Source of the DNA: Streptomyces sp. SID13726
GTDB taxonomy: Bacteria > Actinomycetota > Actinomycetes > Streptomycetales > Streptomycetaceae
DNA: 64,000 nt
Direction of reading: 5' to 3'
Assembly (NCBI RefSeq): GCF_010548375.1
Contig: NZ_JAAGLY010000002.1
Location: 885,158 to 949,157 of the forward strand
The number at the start of each line of letters is the position of its first letter. Position 1 is the first letter of the stretch. The notes beneath the pieces were generated by a model. The model saw only the letters and a program-made list of their open reading frames with translations, ran no database searches and had not been told where the DNA came from. This document shows positions 11,579 to 24,063 of this stretch, piece after piece. Both the position numbers and the translations under genes were made by a program.

Positions 11579-12508
11579 TCACCCCTGGCCGAGGGCCGTC
11601 GACGGCGTGAGTCCCTCGGCGCGTCCCCGGATGCCGTTGCGGAAGTCGATCGGGGACCGGCCCGCGCGTTGCACGAAGTACTTGCTGAACTGGGAGGGCG
11701 TGACGAAGCCGAGGCGGTCCGAGATCTGGGCGGCGGTCTCGTCGCCGTGCGCCAGCAGCCGCTTCGCCTCCAGCACGACCCGGCGGTCGATGAACTCCTT
11801 CGCGCTGAGCCCGGCGCCCGCCAGGGTCGCGCGGGCGAGGGTGCGTCCCGAGTAGCCGAGCATGTGGGCGTAGTCCTCCACCCGTCGGGTGGCGGTGAAA
11901 TGCCGTTCGACCGCGTCCCGGAAGCGCAGGTAGGTCTCGTCCGGCTCCGGAGCGGGGCCGCCGGCCGGGACGGTCAGATGGGCCAGGCGCAGCAGGAGGA
12001 CGGCCAGGAGGTGCCGCAGGGCCGCCCTGTGCATCTCGAGAGGGAGTTGGCCGAGCGCCCGGAACTCGCGGCTCAGGTGTTCCGCGGCCATGGTCACGGC
12101 CTCGGCGTCGGCGTCGCAGGGGGTGATGACGACCGGTGCGTGCGGATCGTCGACCCGGGCGGCCGTCGCCGTGGCGGGGTCCAGCACGTCCTCCCGGAAG
12201 AGGATCAGAGTGCCCTCGGCCTCGGCGAGGTCACCCCACTGGTGCACCTGCCCCGGGCGCACCCACAGCCACGAGCCGGGCCGCAGGGCGTAGCCGGTGA
12301 AGTCGACGACATGCCGGAGGCCACCCGCGGTGAGCGCGAGCAGATGATGGAAGTCCGGGCGCTGGGGCCGGGCGAGGGTCTGCTCGGCGACCCGCCGCCG
12401 CAGCTCCGCCAACGACATGACCTCCACACCGGCCGGAGTGCCCGCGGGCGCGGCGAACGCGACCTCGGGGATCTCGCGCGCGGAGCCGTGTCGGTTTTTG
12501 GCCATCAT
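11579..12508 (-). CDS. AraC family transcriptional regulator
   Basis: A 309-residue protein. The N-terminal half is an AraC-type cupin sensor (RPDFHHLLALTAGG, GSWLWVRPGQVHQWG). The C-terminal domain (about 210-300) has two helix-turn-helix units, the second being AAQISDRLGFVTPSQFSKYF. The gene is divergent from the sirtuin gene, with 157 bp between starts. The start is set at the ATG-ATG pair 12505-12508; the ribosome site is weak. These start codons lie inside a 27-bp block (12488-12514) that recurs at 14680-14706 before the SnoaL gene, which suggests autoregulation plus control of this locus. Confidence 0.85.
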   Translation of the reverse strand: MMAKNRHGSAREIPEVAFAAPAGTPAGVEVMSLAELRRRVAEQTLARPQRPDFHHLLALTAGGLRHVVDFTGYALRPGSWLWVRPGQVHQWGDLAEAEGTLILFREDVLDPATATAARVDDPHAPVVITPCDADAEAVTMAAEHLSREFRALGQLPLEMHRAALRHLLAVLLLRLAHLTVPAGGPAPEPDETYLRFRDAVERHFTATRRVEDYAHMLGYSGRTLARATLAGAGLSAKEFIDRRVVLEAKRLLAHGDETAAQISDRLGFVTPSQFSKYFVQRAGRSPIDFRNGIRGRAEGLTPSTALGQG

Positions 12509-12514
12509 CAGTCG
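12488..12514. promoter_or_regulatory. Shared block, copy A (candidate AraC operator)
   Basis: On the plus strand the blocks GTGTCG, TTTTTG, CCATCA and AGTCG occur in that order with single variable bases between them. 23 of 27 positions are identical to copy B at 14680-14706, in the same orientation. Copy A spans the start codons of the araC-type gene and lies about 150 bp upstream of the sirtuin start. Confidence 0.5.
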
Positions 12515-12665
12515 GAAGTTTATCCGGCTTTCCCTGCGCGCTCTTCGTACGTTGGTCGTGCCGCTGCGGAAACAGAACATCTCCCTGGCGGAGGTCGTCG
12601 AGGAACCGACCACAGCCTGGACGAGTACACGCACCGGCTGTCCGCGGCACCGGAAGGACCCGCGC

Positions 12666-13535
12666 ATGGTGAGCACCACGAACAACACTCCCGCGCCGAC
12701 GGCACCTCGACGCGAGACGATCCGCGCCTGGGCCGAAGAGGCCGACCGGATCCTGATCGCGGCCGGCGCGGGTCTGAGCGCGGCTGCCGGCTACGACTAC
12801 GGCGACACCGAACGCTTCCGGGAACTGTTCCCGGCGCTGCACCGCCTCGGCCTGCGTTCGCGCTACCTGCTCGGCGTTCCCCTGCCGCCGGACATGATGT
12901 GGGGCTACTGGGCCGTCCACATCGACGACATCCGCTACGACCCCGAACCCAGCCCCCTCTACCGCGAGTTGAGGGAGCTGGTGGGCGACCGCGACCACTG
13001 GGTGATGACCTCCAACGTCGACGCCCTCTTCGCCCGCAACGGCTTCGAGACGGACCGGATCTTCACACCTCAGGGCGACTACGGCCGCCTCCAGTGCACG
13101 GTGCCCTGCTCGCGGGACACCTGGCCCAGCAGGCCGTTCCTCGACACGATCCTCGCCGCGTACGACCGTGACACCGGCCGGGTGAGCGACCCTCGGGCCC
13201 TGCCGTGCTGCCCCCGCTGCGGCGCCGACGTCTTCCCCAACGTCCGTGTCGGTCCGGAGTTCGTCGACGACTCCTATCTGCCCGCGGGGCGGCGGCTGGT
13301 GCGGTGGCTCGACGACGCGCCCACGGACAGCGCCCTGCTCGTGCTGGAAATCGGGGCCGGATTCAATACTCCCGGCGTGATTCGCCACCCCATGGAGCAC
13401 CTCGTGCGCCGGACCCCTCGGGCCCGCCTCGTCCGGATCAACCCCGGCCATCCCGGCGTCCCCTCGGACCTCGGCGAACGAGCACTGTCCGTTCCTCTCG
13501 GGGCGGACCGGCTCCTCGACGGGCTCGATCCCTGA
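12666..13535 (+). CDS. Class M sirtuin (SirTM), predicted protein ADP-ribosyltransferase
   Basis: A 289-residue Sir2-fold protein. The NAD site GAGLS is at 34-38, TSNVD has N117 and D119, and the zinc ligands are C144, C148 and the C181/C182-C185 pair. Where deacylase sirtuins have the catalytic His-Gly there is TPQGDYG, with Gln136. SirTM enzymes, known from Staphylococcus and Streptococcus as protein ADP-ribosyltransferases coupled to a macrodomain hydrolase, carry this NVD plus QGDYG combination. A macrodomain gene lies 2.5 kb downstream on the same strand. The ATG at 12666 follows GGAAGGA. The protein target is unknown: the GcvH-L and LplA2 genes of the classic operon are absent. Confidence 0.88.
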   Translation: MVSTTNNTPAPTAPRRETIRAWAEEADRILIAAGAGLSAAAGYDYGDTERFRELFPALHRLGLRSRYLLGVPLPPDMMWGYWAVHIDDIRYDPEPSPLYRELRELVGDRDHWVMTSNVDALFARNGFETDRIFTPQGDYGRLQCTVPCSRDTWPSRPFLDTILAAYDRDTGRVSDPRALPCCPRCGADVFPNVRVGPEFVDDSYLPAGRRLVRWLDDAPTDSALLVLEIGAGFNTPGVIRHPMEHLVRRTPRARLVRINPGHPGVPSDLGERALSVPLGADRLLDGLDP

Positions 13536-13540
13536 CCTCC

Positions 13541-13596
13541 GGCGGGCGGCGAGCGGCGAGCGGCGGGCGGCGGGCGGCGGGCGGCGGGCAGCGGGT
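13541..13596. repeat. Eight tandem 7-bp units
   Basis: Heptamers GGCGGGC or GGCGAGC repeat eight times directly after the sirtuin stop, in the 166-bp gap before the next gene. A related heptamer array is at 10303-10344. Such arrays can vary in copy number; function unknown. Confidence 0.8.
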
Positions 13597-13701
13597 GGCG
13601 GCGGGCCATCCGCCACCGCAGGATGCGAAGCCCGCGCAGGACGGGAAACAGACGAGAAGCAACCGCACGACGAGAAGCCACGACAGGAAGAGAACCCCCA
13701 C

Positions 13702-14595
13702 ATGTCCCAGATTTCCGAGGTACCCGAGGTACCCGAGGTACCCGACGCATCCGTTCCCGCCATCGCCGTCACCGGCTCCACCGGCCGGCTCGGCGGGCGC
13801 GTCGCCCGGCGACTGGCCGAGCGGGGCGTCCCGCAGAAACTCCTGGCCCGCGACCCGGCACGCGCTCCACGGCTGCCCGGCTCGGTGGCGGTACGAGCCG
13901 AGTACGCGGACCGGGACGCCGTACGGGAGGCCCTCGCCGGCATCCGCACCGTCTTCATGGTCTCCGCCTCCGAGAGCGCCGACCGACTCGCCCAGCACAA
14001 GGCGTTCGTCGACGCCGTCGCGGAGGCGGGTGTCCGGCACCTGGTGTACCTCTCCTTCTACGGCGCCGCACCCGACGCCACCTTCACCCTGGCGCGCGAC
14101 CACTTCCACACCGAGCAGCACATCCGCGCCGGCGGCCTGGCCCACACCTTCCTCCGGGACAACCTCTACGCGGAGTTCGTCCCCGACCTCGTCGGCGAGG
14201 ACGGCGCCATCCGCGGCCCGGCCGGGCTCGGGAGCGCCGCGTTCGTCGGCCAGGACGACATCGCCGACGCCGCTGCCGCGGTGCTGTCCCGGCCCGACGA
14301 CCACGCGGGCCTCACCTACGACCTGACCGGGCCCGAGTCACTGACGCTGGACGAAGCGGCCGTGATCCTGTCCGAGCAGCTCGGACGCCCCGTCACCTAC
14401 CAACAGGAGACGGTGGAGGAGGCCTATGCCTCCCGCTCCTCCTACGGCGCACCGCCGTGGCAGCTGGACGCCTGGGTGTCCACCTATACGGCCATCGCCT
14501 CCGGCGAACTCGACGGCGTCAGCGACGCCGTACCGCGCCTCACCGGCCACCCCGCCACATCCCTCGCCGAGGTCGTCCGCGCCAGAAGGGGATGA
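13702..14595 (+). CDS. NmrA/SDR-type NAD(P)-binding protein
   Basis: A 297-residue atypical SDR. A Rossmann site AVTGSTGRLGGRVARRL starts near residue 22, and VRHLVYLSFYGA sits near 115. NmrA-like proteins bind NAD(P) and act either as oxidoreductases on quinone-like compounds or as redox sensors. The N-terminus contains an in-frame 9-bp triplicate (13719-13745) encoding EVPEVPEVP. AGGAAG precedes the ATG. It is on the same strand as the sirtuin, 166 bp downstream across the heptamer array, so co-transcription is likely but not certain. Confidence 0.85.
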   Translation: MSQISEVPEVPEVPDASVPAIAVTGSTGRLGGRVARRLAERGVPQKLLARDPARAPRLPGSVAVRAEYADRDAVREALAGIRTVFMVSASESADRLAQHKAFVDAVAEAGVRHLVYLSFYGAAPDATFTLARDHFHTEQHIRAGGLAHTFLRDNLYAEFVPDLVGEDGAIRGPAGLGSAAFVGQDDIADAAAAVLSRPDDHAGLTYDLTGPESLTLDEAAVILSEQLGRPVTYQQETVEEAYASRSSYGAPPWQLDAWVSTYTAIASGELDGVSDAVPRLTGHPATSLAEVVRARRG

Positions 14596-14679
14596 CCGGC
14601 GGAGCGGTTCCCGTACGACGAGCGGCCGACCAGACCCCTGGAAGCCCTCGGGACCCTCGGCACCCCGAACAAGAGAAGC

Positions 14680-14706
14680 GTGTCGCTTTTTGACCATCAG
14701 GAGTCG
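14680..14706. promoter_or_regulatory. Shared block, copy B (candidate AraC operator)
   Basis: Second copy of the 27-bp block at 12488-12514, about 100 bp before the SnoaL gene in a 212-bp intergenic region. On the minus strand both copies could encode similar peptides (LMMAKNRHGS against LLMVKKRHAS). Copy B might therefore instead be a fossil of a duplicated araC gene start. Confidence 0.45.
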
Positions 14707-14807
14707 CCATTCCTGCCGATCCATGGACCGTCGCAGACATAGTTTGAACACATCGCCGCTGGACCACCGGTCCGCCCCGGCCAGGCCCCCAAGCAAGGAA
14801 GTCAGCC

Positions 14808-15569
14808 ATGAACCACGTGAAGAACGCCGTCCTTCAGGCCGCCACCGAGTTGTTCGGCGACAAGGACCCCTCCGCCGTGGACCGCTGGGTGGCCGCGGAC
14901 TACAGGCAGCACAGCGCACTCGCCGCCGACGGGCCCGAGGCCCTGCGCGGTCTCGTCGCCGGCCTGGGCGAGGACTTCCGTTACGAAGGTGCCCGGGTCA
15001 TCTCCGACGGCGACCTCGTCGCCCTGCACGGCACCTACCACGGCTTCGGTCCTGACCCGCTCGTCGGGTTCGACGTCTTCCGCGTGGACGCCGAGGGCAA
15101 GCTGGCCGAGCACTGGGACGCCCTGACCCCGCAGGTCAAGGACACCCTCTCGGGCCGCTCCCAGACCGACGGCCCCGCCGAGGTCACCGAGACCGACAGG
15201 ACCGACGCCAACCGCGCCCTGGTGGCCGAGTTCGCCGAGAAGGTGCTCGTCGGCGCCGACTACTCGGTCCTCACCGACTACATCTCCACCGAGACCTATC
15301 ACCAGCACAACACCGACGCCGCCGACGGACTCGACGGCTTCGGCGCGGCCGCGGCCAAGTGGGCCGAGCAGGGCAAGAACCTCGTCTACAAGAAGGTCCA
15401 CCGGGTCATCGCCGAGGGCGAGTTCGTCCTGACGCAGTCCGAGGGCGAGTTCGGCGTCCCCGTCGCCTACTACGACCTGTTCCGTGTCGAGAACGGCAGG
15501 ATCGTCGAGCACTGGGACGTCATCGCACCCATCCCGGCCGAACTGCCGCACGGCAACGGCCTGTTCTGA
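14808..15569 (+). CDS. Tandem SnoaL-like (NTF2-fold) protein
   Basis: 253 residues forming two copies of an NTF2/SnoaL cone. Both have the same order of motifs: a helix then DYRQHSALAADG or TYHQHNTDAADG, ending in FDVFRVDAEGKLAEHWDAL or YDLFRVENGRIVEHWDVI. The repeated Tyr-x-Gln-His and Glu-His-Trp-Asp pairs line the pocket in polyketide cyclase-like members, though many such proteins are uncharacterised oxidative-stress or detoxification proteins. GGAAG precedes the ATG. The MoaF-like and macrodomain genes follow at gaps of 80 and 25 bp, so the three likely form one transcript starting near copy B. Confidence 0.85.
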   Translation: MNHVKNAVLQAATELFGDKDPSAVDRWVAADYRQHSALAADGPEALRGLVAGLGEDFRYEGARVISDGDLVALHGTYHGFGPDPLVGFDVFRVDAEGKLAEHWDALTPQVKDTLSGRSQTDGPAEVTETDRTDANRALVAEFAEKVLVGADYSVLTDYISTETYHQHNTDAADGLDGFGAAAAKWAEQGKNLVYKKVHRVIAEGEFVLTQSEGEFGVPVAYYDLFRVENGRIVEHWDVIAPIPAELPHGNGLF

Positions 15570-15649
15570 CCGGCCCGCACACCGCACCCGCACACCGTCC
15601 CAGGCACACCTTCCGCGGATCGCCGACCCCGTACACGGAGCGCAGAGCC

Positions 15650-15973
15650 ATGAGCCACCTCACCTACGCGGGAAAGACGTACAAGTTCAGCGTCGACAAC
15701 GGCGTCGTCTTCCACAACACCTACAACCCCGACGGCACCACGCTGCACTACGAGACCGTCGCCGGCCCCGGCACCGGCGCGAGCGAGGACGTCACGCTGG
15801 ACGCGGCCGAAGTCACCCCTGGCGTCTTCCTGCTCGGCTGGGTGGAGAAGTCCGGCATGACCGTCACCCACGCGATGAACCTCAACACCCTTACGGTGCA
15901 CGCCTTCTGGACCTACGACACCCCCGAGGGCCGAATCGGCGAACTGCACGCCGGCACACTCGAAGAGATGTGA
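15650..15973 (+). CDS. MoaF-like small beta-barrel protein
   Basis: A 107-residue protein with the pattern of the MoaF C-terminal/MoaF-like family: YNPDGTTLHYE, then GWVEKSGMTVTHAMNLNTLT, then FWTYDTPEGRIGELHAGTLE. Family members are lipocalin-like barrels of unknown biochemical role, often beside oxidoreductases. GGAG at 15637-15640 serves the ATG at 15650. It sits between the SnoaL and macrodomain genes, with 25 bp to the latter, which implies co-expression with the ADP-ribose hydrolase. Confidence 0.75.
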   Translation: MSHLTYAGKTYKFSVDNGVVFHNTYNPDGTTLHYETVAGPGTGASEDVTLDAAEVTPGVFLLGWVEKSGMTVTHAMNLNTLTVHAFWTYDTPEGRIGELHAGTLEEM

Positions 15974-15998
15974 TCGACCCGCCCCACCGGAGCCTCTG

Positions 15999-17021
15999 AT
16001 GACCCCGATCCGCGCCGAGTCCGACGCCTTCTCCGGGGCGGAGACACAGCTCTCCGCGCTGCCCCTGACCGCCTACCGGTCGGCCGTCGCCCTCGACGAG
16101 CCCTTCCTCCCGACGGCGCCCCCGGCCACAGCCGCCCAACTGGACGCCCACGTCCGCTCAGCGCTGCGCCTGCTCAGCACCGATCCGGCCGTATCCCGGC
16201 TCGGACTGCGGTCCGACTCACTGAGGCACCTCGCCGATACCGGCGCCCCCGCCGACGCCCCCGCCGGCACCTCCGCCGACGCCGCCACGGCCCGTCGCCT
16301 CCTGCGGGCCCTGCTGACCGTACGTGATCCCGGTCCGCTGCCGGAGGGAGCCGACCGGGACCTGGACGCGCTCCTCGGCGGGGAGCGGCAGCTACGCCCC
16401 GCCGTCTCGGCACTTGAACTGCCCACGATGGAAGAGGAGTTCCACGGAACGGCCTTCCGGTCCCCGGCCGAGGCAGTGCTGTGGCGGGGAGACATCACCA
16501 CGCTGGCCGCCGACGCCGTGGTCAACGCCGCCAACAGTCAACTCCTCGGCTGCTTCCGCCCGCTGCACCCGTGCATCGACAACGCGCTGCACAACGCCGC
16601 CGGATCTCGCCTGCGCGACGACTGCCACACGATCATCTCGGCGCGAGGAGCGACTGAACCCACCGGAGCGGCCAAGATCACCCGGGGCTACCACCTGCCT
16701 GCCCGTTACGTCCTGCACACCGTCGGCCCTCTCATCCACGGCCGCCCCCACTCGACCGACGCCCAGGCGCTCGCCTCCTCGTACCGGGCCTGCCTGGACC
16801 TGGCCGCCGAGGTGGAGGACATCCGCACCCTCGCCTTCTGCGCGATCAGCACCGGCGTCTTCGGCTACCCCAAGGAGGAAGCCGCATCGGTCGCACTGCG
16901 CACCGTCGCCGACTGGATCGCTGCACATCCCGGACGGTTCGACCGCGTGGTGTTCACGGTCTCCGAAGACGCCGACGAACGGGCCTACCGGAACGCCCTC
17001 GGCGTGGACGCCCCCGCCTGA
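15999..17021 (+). CDS. Zinc-type macrodomain, protein ADP-ribose hydrolase
   Basis: A 340-residue protein: a helical N-terminal region (about 1-150) and a macrodomain (about 155-335). ADP-ribose motifs are GDITTL (164-169), NAANS (177-181) and ISTGVFGYP (283-291). The loop GCFRPLHPCIDN (184-195) carries Cys185, His190 and Cys192, the zinc-binding signature of the SirTM-linked macrodomain class, which removes ADP-ribose placed by the sirtuin. GGAG precedes the ATG. With the SirTM at 12666 it would complete a reversible modification cycle. The linked sirtuin and the Cys/His loop make this call strong. Confidence 0.9.
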   Translation: MTPIRAESDAFSGAETQLSALPLTAYRSAVALDEPFLPTAPPATAAQLDAHVRSALRLLSTDPAVSRLGLRSDSLRHLADTGAPADAPAGTSADAATARRLLRALLTVRDPGPLPEGADRDLDALLGGERQLRPAVSALELPTMEEEFHGTAFRSPAEAVLWRGDITTLAADAVVNAANSQLLGCFRPLHPCIDNALHNAAGSRLRDDCHTIISARGATEPTGAAKITRGYHLPARYVLHTVGPLIHGRPHSTDAQALASSYRACLDLAAEVEDIRTLAFCAISTGVFGYPKEEAASVALRTVADWIAAHPGRFDRVVFTVSEDADERAYRNALGVDAPA

Positions 17022-17329: not shown

Positions 17330-18973
17330 ATGGTGGGCTCGGAGATGAACCGCAGGGCGGTGATCGGCAGTTCGCTGTCCATGATCGCCGCGATGGGCAT
17401 GCCGTCCACGGCGCACGCGGGGCCCGCTGGGCGCACGGTCGTGGCGTCGACCCGTTACGGCAGGGTGCGCGGGAAGCGGGAGGACGGCATCGCCAAGTTC
17501 CTCGGCGTGCCGTACGCAACGCCGCCGCTGGGTGAACTCCGGTTCAGGGCCCCGAAACCGCTCACGAGATGGACCGGCGTACGCGACACGGTGAGCTTTC
17601 CCAGCCCGGCGTTCCAGGTGCCGGGCGCAGAGATGGGGCCGGGCGGCAACGGCCGGATGCCCGAGCCTTCCGAGGACTGCCTCTACCTCAACATCTGGAC
17701 TCCCGGCGCCGATCGCCGGCGGCGGCCCGTGATGTTCTACAACCACGGCGGCGGCTACATGATCGGTTCCGGCTCCGCCACCGGACAGGACGGCACCCAC
17801 CTGGCGCGGCTCTACGACGTCGTCGTGGTCGAGTCCAACCACCGGCTGGGCCTGCTGGGTTACCTCTTCCTGGGCGATCTCACCGACGGCGACTACGCGG
17901 CCAACCAGGGGATGCTGGACATCCTGGCCGCGCTGCGCTGGACCCGGGAGAACATCGAGAACTTCGGCGGCGACCCCGACAACGTCATGGTCTGGGGCGA
18001 GAGCGGCGGCGGCGCCAAGACCGCGGCCGTGTACACGATGCCGGCCGCCGTGCCGCTGTTCCGCAAGGCCTCGATCGAGAGCGCCGCACCGCTGCGCTTC
18101 CCCACCCGCGACGGTGCCACCGCCCGGGCCAGACGCACGCTGGAGTTACTGGGACTGACCACGGCGGACATTCCCCGGCTCCACGACATCCCGGCGGCAA
18201 GGCTCCTGGAGATCCAGCAGTCCGAGGCCGCCAACGGCGCCCCGCCCTGGGGCGACCCCGGCCCCCTCCCCGGCTTCGGCGCCTTCGTCGACGGCACCGT
18301 CATCCCACGACACCCCTTCGCCGACGGCGCCGCGCCCTTCTCCGCGAACAAGCCGCTGATGTGCGGCACTTGCCGCGACGAGACGGTGTTCTTCAGCCTC
18401 TTCGGGCCGCCCGACATCTTCAACATCGACGAGGCCGGACTGCGCTCCAGGCTCAGCAGCACCTACCAGGGCGCCGAACTCGACGAGATCATCCGCACCT
18501 TCCATGCCTCGCGGCCCGGTGCGACGCCCGCCCAGCTCTACTTCGCGATCACCACCTCACCCATCTGGCGCGACGCGATCAAAATCGCGGAGGCCAAACG
18601 CGCGCAGCACGCCGCGCCCGTGTTCATGTATCAACTCGCCTACCCGAGCCCGACCTTGGTGCCCGGCACCGACTTCCCCATCGGCTCGCCCCACGCGTCG
18701 GACATCCCCCTGAAGTTCGCCAACACCGACAAGGACCCCGGCTCCATCCTCAACTCGGACCAGTCACCGCAACGGCTGGCAACCGCACGGCACATGAGCG
18801 AACTGTGGGCCGCCTTCGCCCACACGAGCCGCCCCACGGCGGCCGGTGTGCCCAGCTGGCCCGCCTACACCCTGCCTGACCGCGCCACGATGTGGCTCGA
18901 CGCCAGGTGCCGGATCGTCAATGATCCGGACAGGAACGAGAGACTGTTCTGGGAGAACCGCAGCCGAGCCTGA
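17330..18973 (+). CDS. Secreted type-B carboxylesterase
   Basis: A 547-residue alpha/beta hydrolase of the carboxylesterase B family. An N-terminal export signal (NRRAVIGSSLSM then AHAG; Tat-like twin Arg at 8-9) precedes the mature enzyme. KFLGVPYATPPLGELRF and SEDCLYLNIWTP are family hallmarks, HGGGY is the oxyanion hole, and GESGGG holds the catalytic Ser. The acid is likely the Glu in CRDETVFF and the base the His in GSPHASDIP. GAAGGAGGAGG precedes the ATG. It probably hydrolyses esters outside the cell; the substrate is unknown. Confidence 0.9.
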   Translation: MVGSEMNRRAVIGSSLSMIAAMGMPSTAHAGPAGRTVVASTRYGRVRGKREDGIAKFLGVPYATPPLGELRFRAPKPLTRWTGVRDTVSFPSPAFQVPGAEMGPGGNGRMPEPSEDCLYLNIWTPGADRRRRPVMFYNHGGGYMIGSGSATGQDGTHLARLYDVVVVESNHRLGLLGYLFLGDLTDGDYAANQGMLDILAALRWTRENIENFGGDPDNVMVWGESGGGAKTAAVYTMPAAVPLFRKASIESAAPLRFPTRDGATARARRTLELLGLTTADIPRLHDIPAARLLEIQQSEAANGAPPWGDPGPLPGFGAFVDGTVIPRHPFADGAAPFSANKPLMCGTCRDETVFFSLFGPPDIFNIDEAGLRSRLSSTYQGAELDEIIRTFHASRPGATPAQLYFAITTSPIWRDAIKIAEAKRAQHAAPVFMYQLAYPSPTLVPGTDFPIGSPHASDIPLKFANTDKDPGSILNSDQSPQRLATARHMSELWAAFAHTSRPTAAGVPSWPAYTLPDRATMWLDARCRIVNDPDRNERLFWENRSRA

Positions 18974-19072: not shown

Positions 19073-20185
19073 TCAGGTGACAGGACCGTGTTCGACCGTG
19101 ACGGGCACCACGAGCCCGGTCACATCCCATACGCGTACCGTCTTGTCGTTGCCGCCGGTGACGGCGACGGGCCGGCCATCCACCACCGCCGTAGCCACTC
19201 CCCAGACCATGCCCTTGTGACCTTCCAGTTCACCGATCAGCCGTCCCGCAAGCAGGTCCCACATCCGTACCGCCCCATCCCCACTGCCCACCAGGGCAAT
19301 AAGACGGCTTCCCACCACCGCTGTCGTCACCGCGCCCACCTCGGAGTGCACGTCCAGTGTCTCGGCCGCGGGCTGACCGGTGGCCAGGTCCCACACTCGT
19401 ACCGTCCCGTCAAGGTCCCCGGTGACGGCGACGGCACGACCACCGACCACGGCTGTCGCCGCGGCGCGTACCTCGCCGGTGTGACCTGCCAGCGGCTCAC
19501 CGATCTGCGTCCGGTCGGTCAAATCCCATACGCGTACGGTCTTGTCGTTGCCGCCGGTGACAGCGACGGGCCGGCCGGCCACCACGGCTGCGGCCACTGC
19601 CTCCACCCCGTCGGTGTGACCTGCCAGGGGCTCGCCGAGCTGTTCCCGGCCGGCCAGGTCCCACAGCCGTACGGCGCCATCGGCGTGCCCCGTGACGGCA
19701 ACGGGGCGCCCGTCCACCACAGTCGTCGCCGCCGCGCACACGCCGACGGTGCCTTGATCCAGTGGCTCACCGATATGCCGGCCGGTGGCCAGGTCCCACA
19801 TCTGGAGGAGGTTGCTGCCGCCGCCGGACAGGGCGACGGGACGACCGTCGACCACCGCTGTCGCCACCGACCACACTTCGCCGTCGCGGATCAAGCCGTT
19901 GTGGCCCACCAGGGGTCCACCCACCGGTAGGCCGTCGCCAAGGTCCCAGATGCGGACCGTCTCGTCCTGGCCGCCGGTGACAGCGACGGGCCGACCGTCC
20001 ACCACGGCGGTGGCCAGCGACCAGACTCCGTGTTCGTGGCCGGTCAGGGTGAAACGGAGTCGGGAAGGCACATCAGTACGCGGACTACCGGACATGAGCG
20101 AGATGATAGAGCTGCCGTTCCTGTGGCCGAGGCTGCCCCAGTCGTCCGACGCGGCACGAAGCCGCTCCCCGGCTGACTGAAGCAC
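19073..20185 (-). CDS. WD40-repeat beta-propeller protein
   Basis: A 370-residue protein made almost entirely of about seven WD40-like blades of roughly 45 residues. Most contain a near-identical core (AVVDGRPVAVTGG, then DKTVRVWDL). The strong likeness between blades, at DNA level too, suggests recent repeat amplification. The GTG at 20185 has GAGGGGGG at a good distance; an ATG at 20095 is an alternative. No enzymatic or membrane domain remains, whereas many actinobacterial relatives carry an NTPase, peptidase or kinase at the N-terminus. It may be a scaffold or the C-terminal part of a once larger protein. Confidence 0.7.
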   Translation of the reverse strand: MLQSAGERLRAASDDWGSLGHRNGSSIISLMSGSPRTDVPSRLRFTLTGHEHGVWSLATAVVDGRPVAVTGGQDETVRIWDLGDGLPVGGPLVGHNGLIRDGEVWSVATAVVDGRPVALSGGGSNLLQMWDLATGRHIGEPLDQGTVGVCAAATTVVDGRPVAVTGHADGAVRLWDLAGREQLGEPLAGHTDGVEAVAAAVVAGRPVAVTGGNDKTVRVWDLTDRTQIGEPLAGHTGEVRAAATAVVGGRAVAVTGDLDGTVRVWDLATGQPAAETLDVHSEVGAVTTAVVGSRLIALVGSGDGAVRMWDLLAGRLIGELEGHKGMVWGVATAVVDGRPVAVTGGNDKTVRVWDVTGLVVPVTVEHGPVT

Positions 20186-20249
20186 TCGGTCACGCCCCCC
20201 CTCGCGAGACGCGTCGGCGCGCGGACCCGTCAGCCCGCGCGCCGAACGG

Positions 20250-20628
20250 TCAGGCGTCCAGCTGGAGTTGGGCGAGTTCAGTCTCGAGGTCGGCCATGGC
20301 CTCGCCGCCCGCCATGAGGTCGGTGACCTCCTCACGGGTGCGCTCGCCCTTGCAGAAGTCGTCGGCCTTCTGTCCGCGGATCAGGACGGCGAAGTGCTCG
20401 CCGACCATCATCGCGTGCCGGACGTTGTGGGTGACCAGGATGACCGCGACGCCCTTGGCGCGGGCCTGCATGACGATCCGCAGGACGTGCGCGGCCTCCT
20501 TGACGCCGAGGGCGGCCGTAGGCGCGTCCAGGATGAGGACGTTGGCGCCGAAGCAGACCGCGCGGGCGATGGCCAGGGCCTGGCGCTCGCCGCCGGAGAG
20601 GCTGCCCACCAGGCGGTTGGACCCCTCC
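20250..20628 (-). pseudogene. Truncated sugar ABC transporter ATPase (C-terminal half)
   Basis: The translation starts inside the ATPase with SLSGGERQALAIARAV (signature motif), then VLILDAPTAALGVKE (Walker B) and VILVTHNVRHAM (H-loop), and ends normally at 20250. Walker A and everything before it are missing. At about 20625 the similarity breaks and a sugar-isomerase fragment begins on the opposite strand. It matches the monosaccharide (ribose/xylose-type) importer ATPases. Confidence 0.8.
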
Positions 20629-21084: not shown

Positions 21085-24063
21085 CTACTTCAGATAGGGA
21101 CCGTCGGCCCCGATCTTCCCGGGTCCGTTCAGCACGTACACCCGCAGGTTGCCCTTGCCCGGCGCCGCCACGGAGAGGGTGCCGTTGGACACGGTCCTCA
21201 CGTCACCGGTGACGGCGTCCCGGTAAGTGCCGTTCGGGACACCGGTGTAGGTGGCGTTTCCGGAGACGGTGACGAGGGCGAAGCTGTCCGTGCTCCCGCT
21301 GGTGTAGCGGCGCTTGAACGCCATCGAGCCGCTGATGCCGTCGGTCGAGTACTGGCCCAGCTGGAGGGCCGGGACGGCACGGCGGATCTGGTTCAGCCGC
21401 TGGAGGTGCTTCACGAGCGGCTGCGCCAGGGTGGTGGCCACCTCGCCGGACGCCGAGTCCGCCGTACCGAACTGCGAGGCGGTGACGGTGCCTTGGAGGT
21501 GGTCGCCGTAGTACGCGCGTCCGGTGGAGGCGAGCGGGCAGGTCGGGCCGCAGTCGATCTGCTTGCCCTTCTGGAACTCGATCTCCGAGCCGTAGTACAG
21601 GGTGGGGATGCCGCGGAACGTCCACATCAGGGACATATTCTCGGCCCAGGCGTCGGTGCCGCCGGTGTAGCGGGTGCTCGACTTGTTGGGGCCGTAGTCG
21701 TGGCTGTCGACGTAGACGACGTTGTACGTGGCGTCGTTGACGCTGTCGTCGGAGTCCTTGCCGTTGCTGTAGGCGTTCTGCGCGTCGCTGAAGTTCATGT
21801 GCATGCGCATGTCGATGATGTTCATCCCGGAGAACTGGCTGCGGTCCGGGGTGTGGTAGCTGTTGCCGTTCAGGAAGGCGTTGGTCGAGGTCGGCTGGTT
21901 GCCGGTGCCGAGGTTGTTCTCGTAGGTGAACTGCTCGAGGGCGGCCGTCTCGTCGTCGGCGCTGTACTCCTTGCGCTCCTTCCAGGTGAAGAACTGCGCG
22001 GAGTGGTTCACCGAGCCGCGGTTCCACTTGTCGTTGACGAAGGCGCCGACCTCGCCGAAGACGAAGAAGTTCTGGGCGGCCGTGGTGCCGAACTTCTGGG
22101 TGACGCGGTCGTAGATGGCGGGCAGGAAGCGGCGGTTCCAGGTGACGCGCGGGATGTGTACGGCCGTATCGACGCGGAAGCCGTCCACGCCCATGTCGAT
22201 GTACTTGTCGTAGGCGCCGATCAGGTAGTTCTGGACCGGCGTCGACTCGGTGTCGAAGTCGGCGAGGTCCTCGTGGAGCCAGCAGGAGCGGGAGTCCTCG
22301 CCCTCCCAGTTGCCGATCCAGCACTGGTGGTAGTACGCCTTGGGGAACATGCCCGAAGTGGGGCTCGGCCACTGGCAGTTGTAGAGCGTGTAGCCCTCGG
22401 CGCTCTTGCCGCCGGTCGGCTTGCCCCAGTTGACGCAGGTGTTGCCGGTGGGCTCGGCTGTGGACCACAGGTCGCCGTTGTAGTACGACTTCCCGGACTT
22501 GGGCTCGACGGTCAGGCCGTCGTACTCGAAGCCCTCGTTCCTCTCGTCGTAGTACCAGCTCCACTGGGAGTCGCGGACGCCGTAGACGGTGGGGGTGTAC
22601 AGGCCCTTGGCGCCCCAGCGGGAGCTGTGGTTGTAGACGACGTCCTGGTAGATCTTCATGCCCTTGGCGTGGGCCGCGTTGATGAGGTCCTGGTAGGTGG
22701 CGCCGACTGACTCCAGGCGCGGGTCGACCTTATAGAAGTCGTATCCGTGGTAGCCGTGGTAGTCGTAGTCCGAGCGGTTGAGGACGACCGGGGTGATCCA
22801 GACCGCGGAGAAGCCGAGCGCCTTGATGTAGTCGAGCTTCTCGACCAGGCCCTTGAAGTCGCCCCGGAACATGGGGTCGTTGTTCGCCGCGTTGCCGGAC
22901 TTGGTGTGCTGGCTGCCGCCGCGGTCGTTGGAGGTGTCGCCGTCGTAGAAGCGGGCGGTGAGGACGAAGTAGATGGGGTCCTTGCGGGGGTCCGTGCCGA
23001 GCGGGGTGCCTGCGGCGGGTGCGGGGGCCGCGGTGCCGGTGGTCGCCGTCGCCGCGGCGGAGGCGGGCGAGGTGTTCCCGGCGGCGTCGACCGCCTTCAC
23101 GGTGTAGGTGTAGGTGGTCTTCTCCTCAAGTCCCGTGTCTGAGTACACGGTTGAGCCGACGTCCGTGACGACCGTGCCCTTGGTGCCGCCGGTGCGGGTG
23201 ACCTGGTACTTGGTCACGGCCTTGTTGTCGGTGGCCGCGTCCCAACTCACCACGATGGACGTGTCGGTGGCGCTCGCGGTGACCTTGGCCGGTGCGGTGG
23301 GCGCCTCGGTGTCGGGTGCCTCGGTGGCGCACGGGTCGGTGGCGCCGGTGGTGACCGCCTTGTCCTTCACGGTCGTCGTGCCGGTCGGGATCGTGTAGTC
23401 GGCGCTGTTGTTGTTGTCCCAGACGCCGTTGCCGTTGTTGAAGGCGGCCTTGAGGGAGGTGGCGGTGCCGATGTCGAGGGTCTTCTTCCACCAGCCGGTG
23501 CAAGCTGACTCCATGCCGAGGCCGGGGACGGTGGTCCAGGAGCCGCCCGTCGGCGCGTAGTGGATGTTGGCCGTGGTCCAGCCGGAGGTGGCGGTCGAGT
23601 AGTAGACGGTGGCCTGGTTGCCGCTGCCCGTGCCGGTGTCGGCGCACGGGTCGCTGTGGGAGATGACGCCGTCCTTGACGGTGATGGTGCCGGTGCCCAG
23701 CGCGTAGTTGCTGCCGCCGTTGTTGTCCCAGGTGCCGCTGCCGTTGTTGAAGGTGGCCTGGAGTCCGGTGGCCGAGCCGAGGTCGACGGTCCTCTTCACC
23801 CAGTCCGTGCAGGCGCTCTCCATCAGCGTGCCGGGGACGGTCGTCCAGGAGCCGCCGTCCGGGGCGTAGTGCAGATAGGTCGACGGCCAGTTCTTGGTCT
23901 TCGTGTAGTAGAAGACCGTCGCCGTGTTCGCCGAGTCGGCCACCGGCTGAAGGCCGACCTCGGCTTCCGCGCCCGGTGTTGAGGACAGCAGCCCGAACAG
24001 TCCGGTCGCCGCCACGAACGCCACGAGGGGGCGTCGTGGCCGGCGCGGGGGTGCAGATCTCAT
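21085..24063 (-). CDS. Secreted modular GH13 alpha-amylase
   Basis: A 992-residue exported enzyme. Order: signal peptide (1 to about 35, twin Arg pairs then a hydrophobic stretch and AEAE), two related starch-binding modules of the CBM25/26 type (about 45-140 and 148-245, each with YYxT, HYAPxGGSWTTVPG and FNNGxGxWDNN), a fibronectin type III domain (about 255-345), and a GH13 catalytic barrel (about 365-900). Region motifs are DVVYNHS, GVDGFRVDTAVH (nucleophile Asp), FGEVGAF (acid Glu) and YVDSHD. It would degrade extracellular starch. GGAG precedes the ATG. Four CTTKCAG-type motifs upstream suggest MalR/Reg1 repression and maltodextrin induction. Confidence 0.93.
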   Translation of the reverse strand: MRSAPPRRPRRPLVAFVAATGLFGLLSSTPGAEAEVGLQPVADSANTATVFYYTKTKNWPSTYLHYAPDGGSWTTVPGTLMESACTDWVKRTVDLGSATGLQATFNNGSGTWDNNGGSNYALGTGTITVKDGVISHSDPCADTGTGSGNQATVYYSTATSGWTTANIHYAPTGGSWTTVPGLGMESACTGWWKKTLDIGTATSLKAAFNNGNGVWDNNNSADYTIPTGTTTVKDKAVTTGATDPCATEAPDTEAPTAPAKVTASATDTSIVVSWDAATDNKAVTKYQVTRTGGTKGTVVTDVGSTVYSDTGLEEKTTYTYTVKAVDAAGNTSPASAAATATTGTAAPAPAAGTPLGTDPRKDPIYFVLTARFYDGDTSNDRGGSQHTKSGNAANNDPMFRGDFKGLVEKLDYIKALGFSAVWITPVVLNRSDYDYHGYHGYDFYKVDPRLESVGATYQDLINAAHAKGMKIYQDVVYNHSSRWGAKGLYTPTVYGVRDSQWSWYYDERNEGFEYDGLTVEPKSGKSYYNGDLWSTAEPTGNTCVNWGKPTGGKSAEGYTLYNCQWPSPTSGMFPKAYYHQCWIGNWEGEDSRSCWLHEDLADFDTESTPVQNYLIGAYDKYIDMGVDGFRVDTAVHIPRVTWNRRFLPAIYDRVTQKFGTTAAQNFFVFGEVGAFVNDKWNRGSVNHSAQFFTWKERKEYSADDETAALEQFTYENNLGTGNQPTSTNAFLNGNSYHTPDRSQFSGMNIIDMRMHMNFSDAQNAYSNGKDSDDSVNDATYNVVYVDSHDYGPNKSSTRYTGGTDAWAENMSLMWTFRGIPTLYYGSEIEFQKGKQIDCGPTCPLASTGRAYYGDHLQGTVTASQFGTADSASGEVATTLAQPLVKHLQRLNQIRRAVPALQLGQYSTDGISGSMAFKRRYTSGSTDSFALVTVSGNATYTGVPNGTYRDAVTGDVRTVSNGTLSVAAPGKGNLRVYVLNGPGKIGADGPYLK

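Follow-up and report, generated by a model that had tools for sequence, protein, structure and literature searches.

What could a sirtuin of class M (SirTM) and a zinc-loop macrodomain protein (Zn-macro) act on in a Streptomyces genome in which the pair stands apart from any lipoyl protein? This question is raised by a locus of Streptomyces sp. SID13726 (genome size 10.9 Mb), which we studied in a stretch of 64,000 nt, hereafter the window (bases 885158-949157 of one contig). The locus comprises six genes: a divergent gene for an AraC-family regulator on the minus strand, followed on the plus strand (12666-17021) by the genes for SirTM, an NmrA-type protein, a tandem SnoaL protein (SnoaL2), a MoaF-like protein and the Zn-macro. 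The answer that we favour, with a probability of roughly 0.4, is that SirTM would put ADP-ribose on SnoaL2 and the Zn-macro would remove it, in what would be an extended actinobacterial SirTM operon. The locus is real; as to its substrate, we offer a lead that can be tested rather than an established result.

The sirtuin (12666..13535, plus strand) is a SirTM, and thereby a predicted protein ADP-ribosyltransferase, as judged from its residues, its tree position and its fold. No Pfam family matched it at E <= 0.001, and its sole NCBIfam match, a deacylase model, was weak (24.8 bits vs a cut-off of 243). Among the sequences of the Protein Data Bank (PDB), the only matches at E <= 0.01 were the SirTM half of Fusarium Mfs1 (8rsn, 1.7e-40), which is also the joint best fold match, and SpySirTM (5a3a, 3.6e-25). 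N117, Q136, R194 and C144/C148/C182/C185 align with SirTM residues, N117 and R194 being the equivalents of Asn118 and Arg192 of class M. The usual catalytic HG is replaced by QG (Q136-G137), so that Gln stands in place of the catalytic His, and this is invariant in 35 aligned actinobacterial members; the class motif GVGx[NT]TP reads GAGFNTP, with Val changed to Ala and the other positions kept. SirTM rows were separated from His-type sirtuins (27 vs 8 rows) with a support of 100/100, in a tree in which long branches were flagged by the program. The sirtuin thus does not group with deacylases, a placement that a preliminary description of this DNA had regarded as fatal to its assignment. A Pfam SIR2 search of the same genome returned two other sirtuins, both with catalytic HG, and missed the SirTM. 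In a class-wide search 10 of 325 genomes matched, with the Q type only in three (the present genome, G549 and G556); of the other seven matches, the six that were read (all but G341) were His-type, and the loci of all seven, taken as a control, contained no cluster gene besides the sirtuin. Six His-type actinobacterial sirtuins (L131-L135, L137) share 35-38% identity and the same cysteine spacing with SirTM, possess HG, and are the nearest deacylase-like outgroup seen. At five actinobacterial loci (L091, L094, L098, L099, L111) the SirTM carries a variant of the Arg192 equivalent, and its activity may differ.

The second member of the pair (15999..17021, plus strand) is a Zn-macro and a predicted ADP-ribosyl hydrolase. 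Its five best PDB matches were 8rsi, 8rsm, 5kiv, 8rsl and 8rsn, of which 5kiv bears the name SauMacro in PMC11490716 and the other four are Zn-macro structures tabulated in that paper. The best match is MorMacro, to which the protein aligns from residue 98 on, following an N-terminal extension that is typical of the group, whose members have a three-helix bundle at the N terminus. The features given for Zn-macros in section 4 of PMC11490716, namely NAAN, a Cx(4)HxC zinc loop and a Dx3H dyad, occur without exception in the 14 members of the genus that were aligned, the window protein among them. With 271 bits against a curated cut-off of 272 the protein falls one short of NCBIfam NF003163 ('protein-ADP-ribose hydrolase') and is not a member of that model. 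The roles of writer and eraser are predicted for the two proteins because of their family membership, the enzymes of S. pyogenes and S. aureus being those for which assays are reported in PMC4518038 and PMC11490716. Both genes lie on the same strand, 2.46 kb apart. The preliminary description had recognised the pair, and residues, PDB matches, tree and zinc-loop signature bear it out; it had also placed all six genes correctly, and within its span (12488..17021) the stretch 12488-12665 turns out to be the 5' end of the AraC gene plus an intergenic stretch.

The two genes keep company across genomes. In a survey of 295 genus genomes, with SirTM called at E <= 1e-20 and the macrodomain at no less than 57% identity over nearly its full length, SirTM was found in 14 genomes and the macrodomain in the same 14; elsewhere in the survey the best macrodomain E value was 3e-31, and the other listed matches were at most 50% identical. 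The pair is divided between two contigs in G248, and the SirTM match of G180 is broken up over two frames. We further fetched 45 named loci and scored them with eight query proteins; the resulting counts are in part lower bounds because several loci end at contig edges. The macrodomain was matched at 40 of the 45, SnoaL2 at 32, an AraC ortholog (at least 55% identity) at 31, MoaF at 15, NmrA at 13, a DsbA-type protein at 13 and a single SnoaL protein at 10. SirTM and macro genes are adjacent, macro first, at 27 loci and 0.5-2.5 kb apart at 13. The five loci without a macrodomain match are L107 (the G248 contig), L106, L110 and L100 (all three with SirTM in pieces), and L105, a contig of 6 kb from a draft metagenome genome, where a macrodomain search at 1e-20 was negative. 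SirTM or Zn-macro genes in pieces or fragments occur at L072, L097, L100, L101, L103, L104, L106 and L110, by decay or by draft errors. In G275 the cassette is spread over three places (L031, L043, L118): one has SirTM with AraC and macro, another a fragmented SirTM together with two AraC genes and SnoaL2, and the third a further SnoaL2 accompanied by a distant AraC.

The cassette recurs across actinobacteria, in a small number of layouts. That of the window (AraC | SirTM-NmrA-SnoaL2-MoaF-macro) has a counterpart in AraC | DsbA-SnoaL2-MoaF-macro-SirTM-single SnoaL; in eight genus loci of this second layout a 4-nt overlap joins macro and SirTM in five, and SirTM and the single SnoaL gene in four. 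A short form, AraC | SnoaL2-macro-SirTM, is found in Nocardia and Frankia among others, at two Kutzneria loci the AraC of this form is distant (35%) or missing, and in Georgenia and Microbacterium loci SnoaL2 lies on the opposite strand. The linkage of the pair, which the preliminary description had made a condition of its proposal, is hence conserved in relatives, and the neighbour survey that it had called for shows that the gene context, which it had called unusual, is not peculiar to this genome. Of the less constant partners in the window, the NmrA/NAD(P)-binding protein (13702..14595, plus strand; Pfam) has E. coli YtfG and triphenylmethane reductase as its nearest PDB relatives, and the MoaF-like protein (15650..15973, plus strand) is assigned by Pfam PF22036. 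The divergent regulator (11579..12508, minus strand) has the Pfam domains HTH_18 and AraC_binding.

Among the neighbours, SnoaL2 (14808..15569, plus strand), a tandem SnoaL protein of NTF2 fold by Pfam, is the leading candidate target of the pair on grounds of conservation and co-occurrence. At E <= 1e-60 it was present in 14 of 14 SirTM genomes vs 6 of 281 SirTM-free genomes of the genus. In all six of the latter it stands beside an AraC gene (one of them only 35% identical) without the SirTM-macro pair. Ten of the 13 named loci without an adjacent SnoaL2 were followed by genome-wide searches, and eight had a match elsewhere (seven at 79-91% identity, one at 42%); two more of the 13, L070 and L107, appear to correspond to contigs of G275 and G248, and both of these genomes are SnoaL2-bearing. 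Conservation is also highest in SnoaL2, with a mean column identity of 90% vs 76% for SirTM and 69% for the macrodomain. Its fold search was filled by the first domain and says little on the second. SnoaL2 thus occurs without the switch, but the switch hardly ever without SnoaL2, a pattern that one would predict for a modifying enzyme and its target but that shared regulation could produce as well.

A 20-bp element, TTTTTGRCCATCANNAGTCG, occurs at 12495, on the boundary of AraC and SirTM, and at 14687, upstream of SnoaL2. The two operator-like sites, TTTTTGGCCATCATCAGTCG (12495..12514, plus strand) and TTTTTGACCATCAGGAGTCG (14687..14706, plus strand, 121 bp upstream of the SnoaL2 start), were found by motif searches and are the only copies in the window at <=2 mismatches, vs none expected. 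Genome-wide there are two exact copies and none further at fewer than three mismatches; at three mismatches the whole genome contains two sites, vs three for a reversed control pattern, and so gives no sign of a regulon beyond the locus. Relatives were scored for at least 14 of the 18 defined positions within 300 bp upstream of a gene, and Fisher tests were applied. The motif precedes DsbA in 13/13 genes, SirTM in 12/45, SnoaL2 in 11/32, macro in 2/40, NmrA in 0/13 and MoaF in 0/15, vs 2/945 control stretches from the same loci. Copies at AraC boundaries overlap AraC codons, so only copies away from AraC are clean evidence. Such copies stand before SirTM at L073, L075 and L103 (2, 4 and 3 mismatches, respectively) and, without an adjoining AraC, 122 bp before SnoaL2 at L150 (1 mismatch). 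We infer that the twin sites are a putative operator of the local AraC protein, which would drive two blocks.

Taken together, these observations suggest the following course of events. SirTM would transfer one ADP-ribose to the tandem-SnoaL protein, and the Zn-macro would take it off again. The AraC protein may bind both sites and thereby induce both blocks together, SirTM-NmrA and SnoaL2-MoaF-macro, each with one operator-like site before it. Modification would switch SnoaL2, or a complex that contains it, off, and the eraser would switch it back on. YtfG reduces quinones. The similarity of NmrA to YtfG and triphenylmethane reductase, together with the DsbA-type protein of the second layout, points loosely to electrophile or thiol stress, and the inducer could perhaps be electrophile or quinone stress; for OYE and LLM of the lipoate-linked operon a connection with the same kind of stress has been suggested. 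Only tentatively can this be generalised to a second, lipoate-free class of extended SirTM operons, in which reversible mono-ADP-ribosylation of an NTF2-fold (SnoaL) enzyme would control a small-molecule detoxification or redox pathway, the writer and the reductase forming one block and the substrate and the eraser another, each under its own copy of one dedicated AraC operator.

Several observations weigh against the proposal that SnoaL2 is modified by the pair. An adjacent SnoaL2 is missing from 13 of the 45 named loci, and two of the ten genomes searched for a copy elsewhere (G295, G298) are without any SnoaL2 at 1e-30. No residue tells SirTM-linked SnoaL2 (n=38) from unlinked SnoaL2 (n=15): a single I/V position differs, and no acidic, Cys or Asn site does, although this comparison is weak because 9 of the 15 unlinked copies come from SirTM-bearing genomes and only six from SirTM-free ones. 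The occurrence of SnoaL2 without SirTM implies that its own job is independent of the switch. On the side of regulation, the first site overlaps the initial codons of AraC, and the SnoaL2 units of L151-L153 are without the motif. As for the enzymes, the SirTM frame is still open at L072 and L103 although the neighbouring macro gene is broken up, and no intact Zn-macro was found elsewhere in either genome. R194, whose equivalent in SpySirTM is required for activity according to PMC4518038, gives way to His, Asn or Tyr in five of the 25 actinobacterial rows, all five from outside Streptomyces.

Some of these points lend themselves to other explanations. It is conceivable, if somewhat unlikely, that the target of the pair is encoded outside the locus, with SnoaL2, NmrA, MoaF and AraC as nothing more than stress genes in the same regulon. 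The lack of an acceptor signature in SnoaL2 would fit, as would the eight of 45 loci with neither SnoaL2 nor NmrA nearby and the statement in PMC11490716 that the targets of lone SirTM/Zn-macro pairs are unknown. Against this, the co-occurrence of SnoaL2 with SirTM (14/14 vs 6/281) and the shared motif are closer than expected of chance neighbours, even if shared regulation alone could give both. The substrate of a genuine pair might also be another protein of the locus, namely AraC, NmrA, MoaF or, in the second layout, DsbA or the single SnoaL protein, which we likewise consider somewhat unlikely. AraC orthologs occur near SirTM about as often as SnoaL2 does (31 vs 32 of 45), and modification of AraC would make the operon self-regulating; yet the AraC at the same place in L076, L077 and L091 is only 35-39% identical. 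NmrA or SnoaL2 is present at 37 of the 45 loci, but NmrA, DsbA, MoaF and the single SnoaL protein each reach at most 15. Of the two candidate substrates named in the preliminary description, SnoaL2 (32/45 loci) therefore leads, and NmrA, being variable (13/45), is the weaker.

It is very improbable that the sirtuin instead serves as a deacylase or as a NADase in defence, with a macrodomain that hydrolyses O-acetyl-ADP-ribose. Many public homologs (most of the named ones among the 120 listed of 485 matches) carry the label 'NAD-dependent protein deacetylase of SIR2 family', but the Gln in place of the catalytic His, the tree and the fold speak against such an activity, and the label is probably wrong. 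A defence system was rejected as well, as none of the six locus proteins matched a PADLOC model at E <= 0.001.

How does the locus compare with SirTM systems already described? The extended SirTM operon of Staphylococcaceae and Lactobacillales consists of GcvH-L, Zn-macro, SirTM and LplA2, often with OYE and LLM (PMC4518038, PMC11490716). Like it, the present cassette combines SirTM and Zn-macro with further genes, including NAD(P)H-dependent or redox enzymes; unlike it, these are AraC, SnoaL2, MoaF, and NmrA or DsbA, and not GcvH-L and LplA2. The window locus is accordingly no member of the lipoate-linked operon: in its own genome the GcvH and LplA/LipB-type genes lie on other contigs, in keeping with the absence noted in the preliminary description, and in all 14 SirTM genomes matches to GCV_H (PF01597) and LplA/LipB-type (PF21948) families either fall on other contigs or are separated from SirTM by more than 200 kb, so that a lipoyl-linked operon was rejected. 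The minimal SirTM/Zn-macro pair, known e.g. from Methanobrevibacter oralis, Enterococcus faecalis and Treponema pedis (PMC11490716), resembles the macro-first adjacency of the 27 named loci, and MorMacro is the best PDB match here; the conserved extra neighbours and the 2.46 kb between the window genes set the cassette apart. Zn-macros of lone pairs or fusions did not demodify SpyGcvH-L, and the targets in other systems are described as unknown (PMC11490716). Mfs1 is a fungal macrodomain-SirTM fusion, whereas two separate proteins are encoded here.

From the same genus, the macrodomain proteins SCO0909, SCO6450 and SCO6735 of Streptomyces coelicolor are treated in PMC5087735 as a bacterial-type PARG, a MacroD1 homolog and, for SCO6735, a subclass of its own; 'SirTM', 'Sir2' and 'zinc' are absent from the text of that paper, and the main texts of PMC4518038 and PMC11490716 do not name actinobacteria. 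A description of the cassette was found neither in the text of these three papers nor in that of PMC6397177 and PMC8603916, nor elsewhere in the SirTM, sirtuin, macrodomain and SnoaL literature, a search whose reach excluded supplements, figures and most subscription papers, so that an earlier mention is possible; no paper joining SnoaL with a macrodomain was found in it. The cassette shows SirTMs outside the 'microbial pathogen' setting in which PMC4518038 places them and offers a short list of candidate targets in soil bacteria, led by a protein of nearly every SirTM genome tested. If the proposal holds, it would represent a second type of sirtuin-macrodomain switch, next to the lipoate-linked switch of staphylococci and streptococci.

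Two repeats were observed within the locus: a GC-rich tandem repeat with a unit of 7 bp in the stretch between SirTM and NmrA (window 13540-13601), and a perfect 9-bp repeat of 3.4 copies at the NmrA start (window 13715-13745), which encodes EVPEVPEVP. Directly after the macro gene lies a gene for a carboxylesterase with a signal-like N-terminus (window 17330-18973), without a match among 16 genus loci compared, followed by genes for a WD40-repeat protein (window 19073-20335) and a large alpha-amylase with CBM25 and fn3 domains (window 21085-23943).

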